From Deltaproteobacteria bacterium (GTDB taxonomy: Bacteria > Bdellovibrionota_F > JAHFAK01): a DNA stretch of 7,782 nucleotides. A program made the translations under genes and the position numbers. Shown here piece after piece: positions 3,139-7,330 of this stretch. The notes beneath the pieces were generated by a model. The model ran no database searches. It saw only the letters and a list, made by a program, of their open reading frames with translations, and was not told the origin of the DNA. The stretch spans positions 2,760 to 10,541 of the forward strand of contig JAHFAK010000086.1 in the NCBI GenBank assembly GCA_023250585.1. Reading direction: 5' to 3'. Numbering within the stretch: position 1 is the first letter of the stretch; the number at the start of each line of letters is the position of its first letter.

Positions 3139-3252
3139 GAAGGCGGAGAAATATGTTTTAAAAAAAATTATACCTAAATTTGCTTCCTCTTATAAAACTT
3201 CACTGAGCAAAATTTAGGTATAATTTTTTTTAAAACATATTTCTCCGCCTTC
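3139..3252. repeat. Perfect 43-bp inverted repeat with 28-bp loop
   Basis: Arms 3139-3181 and 3210-3252 are perfect reverse complements over 43 bp, separated by 28 bp (3182-3209). Each arm has a GC-rich outer end (AAGGCGGAG and its complement), a central run of eight A or T, and an inner TTATACCTAAATTT. There is no U-tract after the stem on either strand, so it is not a standard intrinsic terminator, although it would fold strongly in RNA. It sits between the tRNA-Leu side element and the nuo promoter. I do not recognise it as a named element; its loop resembles nothing else in the window. Confidence 0.9.
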
Positions 3253-3261
3253 CCAATTCTT

Positions 3262-3382
3262 ATGCACAGTAAAATTCATTTTAGACAAGGCGAGGAATAA
3301 AAATCCGAGTAAGGCGTATATTATAATACGCCGTCGAGGAGTTTTATTCCTCAACGCAGTATAAGATGAATTTTACAAGCAT
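3262..3382 (+). repeat. Palindromic element, copy A, abutting tRNA-Leu
   Basis: The core is 3280-3365, bounded by TTTAGAC and GTATAAG. It contains GAGTAAGGCGTAT (3307-3319) and AATACGCCGTCGAG (3325-3338), both shared with copies B and C. Inner arms GAGGAATAAAA (3292-3302) and TTTTATTCCTC (3342-3352) pair perfectly. Outer arms 3269-3279 and 3366-3376 pair over 11 bp. After a small internal loop, ATGC (3262-3265) pairs with GCAT (3379-3382), whose last base is the tRNA discriminator position. Orientation is given by the core as in copy C. Confidence 0.85.
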
Positions 3383-5522: not shown

Positions 5523-5861
5523 ATGTTTACCGCAGAAAAAAAAATACTCGATATTCTTGTACAAAAAATTAAAAACGTACTAAAAAGTGAGCTTGTTACG
5601 ATTGTTGTGTTTGGATCGCGTGTGCGTGGCGATTTCCATGATAGTTCCGATTTTGATATTCTCATTATTGTACAAAAAAAGTCATTTGCTCTACTTAATA
5701 GGATAAACCAAATTATTACTGAAGAAGAATTACGTTCTCTACAAAATTTCGGTGTTCTTGTTAAAGGCCTTAATACTTTTCGCCAAGAAAAAAAATATAA
5801 CACCCCATTTTATCAAAACATTAAAAATGAAGGGAAAGTACTGTATGGTAGAATTGAGTAA
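5523..5861 (+). CDS. MNT-type nucleotidyltransferase (MntA-like antitoxin)
   Basis: This is a 112-residue minimal nucleotidyltransferase of the DNA polymerase beta superfamily. The active-site motif GSX10DXD is complete: GS at 31-32, then D43 and D45 in SSDFDILI. The glycine-rich GSRVRGD and the C-terminal FYQNIKNEGKVLYGR block are typical of the small MNT proteins paired with HEPN partners. In characterised MntA-HepT systems this protein transfers AMP to a tyrosine on the HEPN toxin and silences it. That role is inferred here from the motif and the adjacent HEPN gene. It overlaps the next gene by 17 bp. The ATG at 5523-5525 has only a weak ribosome site. A stand-alone nucleotidyltransferase role cannot be excluded. 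Confidence 0.88.
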   Translation: MFTAEKKILDILVQKIKNVLKSELVTIVVFGSRVRGDFHDSSDFDILIIVQKKSFALLNRINQIITEEELRSLQNFGVLVKGLNTFRQEKKYNTPFYQNIKNEGKVLYGRIE

Positions 5862-6267
5862 GGAAGAAAAAATATCTCTATCAGATATTCGATTTGAAAA
5901 AAGTAAAACAATGCTTACCGATGCAAAAAAAAGCTATGAAGCCGAAATGTATAAAACGTCCGTGAATAGAAGTTACTATGCAATTTTGCATGCAGCTCGA
6001 TCAATTTTAATACTTCAGGGAGTTGATCCATCACGCCACGAAGGAGTAAAAACAATGCTCTCACTCCATTTTGTTAAACCGAAATTGCTCTCTCAAGACG
6101 CAATAAAAATCTTCCATAATTTACTATCCATGAGAACTGATGTTGATTACGGTGATTTTGAGTATATCAGCAAAGAAGATGCAAAAGAATCTTATGAAGA
6201 AGCTCAAAAATTTATTGAAATGATTGAATCAATAAAAAAAAAGTTACAAGAAGAACTCACGAGATGA
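5845..6267 (+). CDS. HEPN domain protein (probable RNase toxin partner)
   Basis: This is a 140-residue all-helical HEPN protein. Residues 42-49 read RSYYAILH, the RX4-6H motif (R42, H49) that forms the RNase centre in HEPN toxins. Further family features are the HAARSIL segment, a GVDPSRHEGV loop, HFVKPKLL and RTDVDYGDF. This pattern matches the classical HEPN family (PF05168 type) better than the HepT/DUF86 type. The tyrosines next to the R...H motif could be targets of AMPylation by the MNT partner. The ATG at 5845 is preferred, with GAAGGGAAAG just upstream; an in-frame ATG at 5827 would add six residues. It ends 4 bp from the convergent gene at 6272, and no terminator is visible between them. 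Confidence 0.87.
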   Translation: MVELSKEEKISLSDIRFEKSKTMLTDAKKSYEAEMYKTSVNRSYYAILHAARSILILQGVDPSRHEGVKTMLSLHFVKPKLLSQDAIKIFHNLLSMRTDVDYGDFEYISKEDAKESYEEAQKFIEMIESIKKKLQEELTR

Positions 6268-7059: not shown

Positions 7060-7186
7060 AAATCATCGGTCTTATTTTCTTTTATACTTCGTTTTCAGTC
7101 GAAAATCTCGACGACGTATTAGAAAATACGCCTTACTCAATTTTCTCCTTCAAGCCTCGTCTAAAAGAAAATAAGACCGATGATTT
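7060..7186 (-). repeat. Palindromic element, copy B, in the 23S-5S spacer
   Basis: Outer arms 7060-7084 and 7162-7186 are perfect inverted repeats of 25 bp. The core, read on the minus strand, is 7081-7165, from TTTAGAC to GTATAAA. It carries GAGTAAGGCGTAT (7126-7138) and AATACGTCGTCGAG (7107-7120), shared with copies A and C. It is inverted relative to those copies. Its left arm begins 6 bp upstream of the 5S 5' end. Confidence 0.9.
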
Positions 7187-7207
7187 TATTTTCCTTTTTC
7201 TAGAGAA

Positions 7208-7330
7208 CCTCGCAGGCACATTTTGATTTAGACAAGGCCCGAGGGAGAAATCCGAGTAAGGCGTATTTTCTAATACGTCGTCGAGGATTTCGACCGAGAA
7301 CACAGTCTAAATCAAAATGTGCCTGCGAGG
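7208..7330 (+). repeat. Palindromic element, copy C, at the 23S 3' end
   Basis: Outer arms 7208-7233 and 7305-7330 are perfect inverted repeats of 26 bp. The core is 7227-7311, from TTTAGAC to GTCTAAA, with GAGTAAGGCGTAT at 7254-7266 and AATACGTCGTCGAG at 7272-7285. GAAATCC (7247-7253) and GGATTTC (7285-7291) form an inner stem. The element ends about 10 bp from the 23S 3' end, with AAAAATTTTT between them, and 21 bp separate it from copy B. Confidence 0.9.

Follow-up and report, generated by a model that had tools for sequence, protein, structure and literature searches.

Hairpins A, B and C, three palindromic elements in the window (the whole 7,782-nucleotide stretch of deltaproteobacterial DNA that was analysed), belong to a family with about 105 copies in their own genome, and on balance they are best regarded as non-coding, MITE-like mobile hairpins of about 125 bp whose arms are kept complementary by template-switch copying after insertion. 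The window also carries nuo genes, a tRNA-Leu gene, ruvA, ruvC, yebC, a nucleotidyltransferase/HEPN pair, a 5S rRNA gene and the 3' end of a 23S rRNA gene. The neighbouring nucleotidyltransferase (PF18765/PF01909) and HEPN (PF05168) genes, at 5523-6267, likely form an MNT/HEPN toxin-antitoxin pair. The palindromes of the window are as follows.

3139..3252, no strand assigned: member of a second family, unrelated to that of A, B and C, with 43-bp perfect private arms and a conserved 28-nt loop (3182-3209).
3262..3382, + strand: copy A, a hairpin adjoining the tRNA-Leu 3' end; core about 3287-3359, perfect outer arms 3269-3279/3366-3376; model match C163:6028-6135.
7060..7186, - strand: copy B, a hairpin in the 23S-5S rRNA spacer; core about 7087-7158, 25-bp perfect private arms 7060-7084/7162-7186; model match C163:9829-9935.
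7208..7330, + strand: copy C, a hairpin in the 23S-5S rRNA spacer; core about 7234-7305, 26-bp perfect private arms 7208-7233/7305-7330; model match C163:9975-10081.

The three copies with a common core that the initial annotation had described were recovered at the same coordinates, and the lengths it gave for their private perfect arms, with uninterrupted outer pairing of 11 bp in A, 25 bp in B and 26 bp in C, were confirmed. Each copy folds into one long stem with internal mismatches within the core. By our own arithmetic from the base composition of the window, the chance of a 25-bp perfect inverted repeat within 130 nt is about 1e-9 to 1e-8 per window. Copy B is oriented opposite to A and C, and the 23S-5S spacer is filled by B and C in opposite orientations; as inverted copies 21 nt apart (7060-7330), the two could fold as two hairpins or as one long hairpin with 99-nt arms that are 82% complementary. 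A BLAST search with copy C located a fourth core on another contig (C117:45170-45276, here copy D) with its own private 24-bp perfect arms, and the arms of A, B, C and D have no obvious common sequence. Over about 85 nt the cores can be aligned, and they show the landmarks first proposed for them, but the outermost two, TTTAGAC and GTMTAAR, are partly arm, because copy D has CGAGAC and GTATCG at those places. No flanking target-site duplication was seen by eye at A, B or C.

A first covariance model built from copies A to D found about 35 further places in the genome, and a second, built from 24 copies, gave at least 109 matches at E<=1 among 150 scored candidates, so that the model search once proposed as a check did return many further copies. 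Within 1.18 Mb of the genome, 81 copies were located. There are at least four subfamilies, all of which contain RAGGC, an apical GCGTAY...RTACG stem-loop (invariant across subfamilies in the form GCGTAT/ATACG) and AACRNNG, with a spacing from RAGGC to AAC of 65-66 nt in nearly all copies and of 69-70 nt in one subfamily. Only 12 of the 81 copies overlap an open reading frame of at least 110 aa, compared with 87% of random stretches. The family is to be seen as a DNA element and not as an RNA acting in cis: relative to codirectional neighbours its copies are oriented 17:17, a lack of strand preference that argues against a role as cis-RNA. Rfam covariance models matched only rRNA and tRNA in the window and nothing at copy D. 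With no Rfam match, and with no explanation in open-access papers on palindromic repeats, a named repeat family that already accounts for the arms, which would have undone the initial reading, did not emerge; nor was a description of the core motifs or of such a family found in the full text of open-access papers. Of 23 tRNA genes, three lie within 150 nt of a copy, where about 0.8 would be expected, and a subfamily-4 copy (L361 17285-17426; L279) ends just upstream of a sequence resembling the start of an RNase P RNA gene, which together suggests that copies lie near stable RNA genes. Some members of subfamilies 3 and 4 (L030, L032, L027, L017, L276), as well as copies in an unrelated deltaproteobacterium (L297-L302), show an additional left arm some 26 nt upstream; in sequence it is similar to the right arm in reverse complement, some of the private outer bases of that arm included.

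Beyond its own genome, the element was sought in 115 genomes that had been chosen without regard to it, each representing another GTDB family; 8 of them gave matches at E<=1e-6. A strict sequence pattern had no matches in genome or viral contigs. A looser, degenerate pattern recovered at least 118 stretches in GTDB genomes, where about two chance matches are expected by our own estimate and some single matches could thus be chance, and one match among 2.9 million viral contigs. The taxa concerned include many Deltaproteobacteria, Geobacter sp. AOG1, Nitrospirae, Selenomonadales and other Firmicutes, Pseudomonas, Rokubacteria, Acidobacteria, Arcobacter, Campylobacter gastrosuis, Veillonella and others, and in 22 genomes reached through the pattern search the covariance model found between 1 and 149 copies each. 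The metagenome-assembled genome Dive96_bin1.91 (L076, L113, L120, L158, L171, L172), with 149 model matches, carries a longer version of about 190 bp with an extra inner module; its copies are 86-96% alike, and flanking repeats of about 5-7 bp can be seen by eye in a few.

That the hairpin element is mobile is evident from its youngest subfamily: nine copies whose cores are identical or almost so, and whose arms hardly differ, stand at unrelated sites with different flanks. The unit runs TAC...GTA. Identical 3-bp TNA repeats flank 8 of the 19 young-type (subfamily-2) copies with measurable borders, compared with 2.6 by shuffling (p=0.0005), and shifted controls for identical flanking 3-mers gave 1, 0 and 0. 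The arms belong to the mobile unit, because young copies carry common arms along with the core and the TNA repeats flank the whole unit, outside the arms. We rejected the idea that the TNA duplication turns complementary at its middle base, since flank trinucleotides that became complementary number 3 of 19, no more than chance. A search for the subfamily-2 arm pattern in the incomplete 164-contig assembly revealed isolated arm copies and no autonomous element or transposase-bearing partner, a scan of multicopy open reading frames in half of the genome found no transposase, and no protein family recurred beside 118 element loci; two DDE_Tnp_1 matches in the genome were not linked to the element.

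The arms of individual copies change in concert. In subfamily 2, 21 complementary double changes stand beside 15 mismatches, where independent arms would give about 1.7 doubles, and in subfamily 3 the figures are 9 and 12, with 0.8 expected; complementary double changes are thus about tenfold above expectation, in counts of two-sided change that include changes inherited by several copies. The arms of these two subfamilies are recognisably homologous and show paired changes, and mismatched arms are common among them, so arm correction is incomplete there. In one element-bearing genome (G059), 52 pairs of copies with a core identity of at least 95% have an arm identity of only about 0.71, which is the combination of conserved cores with differing yet pairing arms that the initial annotation had expected to see. 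Private arms are likewise present in further genomes, among them Geobacter sp. AOG1, a large single-scaffold record. At one orthologous Pseudomonas locus, two base pairs differ on both arms between species (CTGG/CGGG and GGCCA/GGTCA), and the co-change therefore happens in place. The arms of A to D, judged from their sequence, appear too different for descent from one ancestral arm to be demonstrable.

In a search of 79 genomes, an orthologous Pseudomonas locus was found to hold the element, to lack it wholly or to retain a one-armed remnant, the latter without a core and in two Pseudomonas species. These remnants look like secondary losses, because the element is present in relatives both closer and more distant. 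The searches yielded no true empty site, nor any inside other repeats. Pseudomonas viridiflava has a tandem duplication of the element (L139 7581-7649 and 7712-7780) downstream of an aldehyde dehydrogenase-like gene, at a place where P. alcaliphila has one copy (L117 6197-6265).

The second palindrome family, represented in the window at 3139-3252, records arm correction more fully. Its 28-nt loop type has five copies in 1.18 Mb of the genome (the window copy and four more), while a related type with a 39-nt loop has 43 matches in the same 1.18 Mb; the window palindrome corresponds to L420 5898-6011. Among 41 full-length copies of the 39-nt type, 482 two-sided changes from the consensus stand against 12 mismatches over 1394 positions, or about 40:1. 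Units with GTAA-type ends enclose 22 of the copies, and in 19 of the 22 a target duplication of 8-9 bp was found. The second family is MITE-like, and the ends and duplications of its 39-nt loop type may resemble features of the IS66 family. Relative to the outer ends, the loop is oriented one way in 10 of the 22 units and the other way in 12. In the 19 copies with target duplications, mismatches number 6 of 154 positions in the duplications, whose two sides started out identical, versus 5 of 646 in the arms (p=0.009); measured by this clock, the arms have about one fifth of the mismatches to be expected. Template switching between inverted repeats is reported to homogenise arms and to invert spacers (PMC8794818, PMC8604942, PMC7202029), and quasi-palindrome template-switch mutagenesis predicts multi-base compensatory change as well. 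Arms homogenised beyond the neutral clock together with an inverting spacer were found in the second family only, and quasi-palindrome template switching explains its arm pattern best. It differs from the present case in being a mutational process and not an element, one that here would act on mobile repeats genome-wide.

Applied to the hairpin element, such a process would run as follows. The asymmetric core, comprising the RAGGCG box, the apical GCGTAY/RTACG stem-loop and the AACGMMG box at fixed spacing, would sit in an imperfect stem that is extended by arms forming part of the unit. An enzyme acting in trans would move this unit into intergenic DNA, insertion of the young-subfamily unit presumably leaving the 3-bp TNA duplication. 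After insertion the arms would drift, and a nascent strand would, by folding back or by a template switch within the long inverted repeat, copy one arm onto the other, probably during DNA replication, such that arm changes would be erased or fixed on both arms. Older copies, among which we would count A to D, would end with private yet complementary arms that had drifted in concert, while the mismatches of the core, the putative recognition site, would be kept as needed for recognition and movement. Template switching in replication, rather than selection, would on this sequence evidence remove arm mismatches. A copying process that makes or repairs the arms, one of two origins initially proposed, fits the concerted arm changes.

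The main rival, which we consider fairly unlikely as a full account, is that the element is a functional hairpin, acting as folded single-stranded DNA in movement or as RNA, and that ordinary mutation with selection for pairing keeps its arms. The core structure is under selection, because its spacing is strictly fixed and its internal mismatches are conserved across phyla, and selection for pairing probably contributes there; it would also accommodate the mismatched intermediates common in subfamilies 2 and 3, the copies beside 3 of 23 tRNA genes and the placement of B and C in an rRNA spacer. Selection on one element does not, however, predict a second family with an unrelated loop, 8-9-bp target duplications, a 40:1 excess of two-sided change and 10:12 loop inversion. 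Less probable again is that the mobile hairpins form a pan-bacterial superfamily, with a folded core recognised by an enzyme that acts on single strands and with arms rebuilt at each insertion by fold-back copying; if this were true, terminal repeats would be made at insertion and not recognised by sequence.

Two further readings are each improbable. In the first, the other origin initially proposed, short bare cores enter perfect palindromes that existed beforehand, terminators for instance, and the arms belong to the target site. The lack of an obvious common sequence in the arms of A to D and the many long perfect palindromes of the genome are in its favour, but the youngest copies carry identical arms with TNA repeats outside the whole unit, the arms of subfamilies 2 and 3 are homologous with paired changes, and many coreless palindromes belong to other repeat families with loops of their own. 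The second treats the perfect arms and mixed loop orientation as artefacts of short-read assembly. At k-mer sizes close to the arm length of 37-46 bp a graph assembler could merge both arms, perfect inverted repeats could be simplified by an assembler, and the genome is in 164 contigs with N runs; an artefact cannot, however, create private arms or target duplications, this assembly retains mismatches in other families and at conserved positions next to loops, and arm co-variation recurs in other assemblies.

The least credible reading makes the element a repeat of REP/RAYT type, moved by a Y1 tyrosine transposase. RAYT-like proteins are present in the genome, and the apical stem TAAGGCGTA...TACGCCG presumably resembles the E. 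coli REP stem with its conserved bulge. That bulge has been described (PMC8266576). REP/RAYT does not explain the element, because Y1/RAYT transposases are absent from several copy-rich genomes: at a threshold of E<=1e-4, Y1_Tnp went unmatched in 7 of the 22 element-bearing genomes (G045, G049, G050, G052, G053, G059 and G062), among them genomes that hold 40, 51, 35 and 82 copies. This absence, with motif scans that found no element beside the RAYT genes of the own genome, led us to reject RAYT as the mover.

The template-switched, MITE-like hairpin favoured here can be set beside several known systems. Like a MITE, the element is short, non-coding, multicopy and mostly intergenic, with inverted-repeat ends and short direct repeats at the borders of its young subfamily (target-site duplications in 8 of 19 subfamily-2 copies). 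Unlike in a MITE, its conserved sequence is central and not terminal, its terminal arms vary between copies yet stay complementary, and no parent transposon was found in the incomplete assembly. REP, BIME and REPIN sequences with their RAYT (TnpA_REP), and TIRtrons, are likewise intergenic palindromes with conserved internal mismatches that occur across phyla (PMC3733652). The hairpin element is, in contrast, about three times longer, occurs in genomes without a detectable Y1 transposase and lacks a GTAG or CGTC tag at its foot, neither tetranucleotide being present beside the arms of A, B, C or D. The multicopy intergenic sequences of Geobacter metallireducens are also dispersed, palindrome-containing families, in a genus that carries the hairpin element, and may include members of it, though they are presented as separate families within Geobacteraceae (PMC2700814). 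Three other candidates were rejected. The GTTRRRY/RYYYAAC core sites of integron attC are absent from the stem base, where A, B and C have GTATAAG, GTATAAA and GTCTAAA along with TTTAGAC; the in-frame insertion in protein genes typical of Rickettsia palindromic elements is not seen, 12 of 81 copies overlapping a long reading frame; and no curated covariance model of an Rfam structured RNA family matched the hairpin copies.

The hairpin element links dispersed repeats of many phyla that have seemingly never been joined under one family. With target duplications as a clock, the rate of arm correction becomes directly measurable in the second family, a rate that bears on the upkeep of stems in DNA and RNA, and the arms of both families form a natural record of how long palindromes stay complementary.
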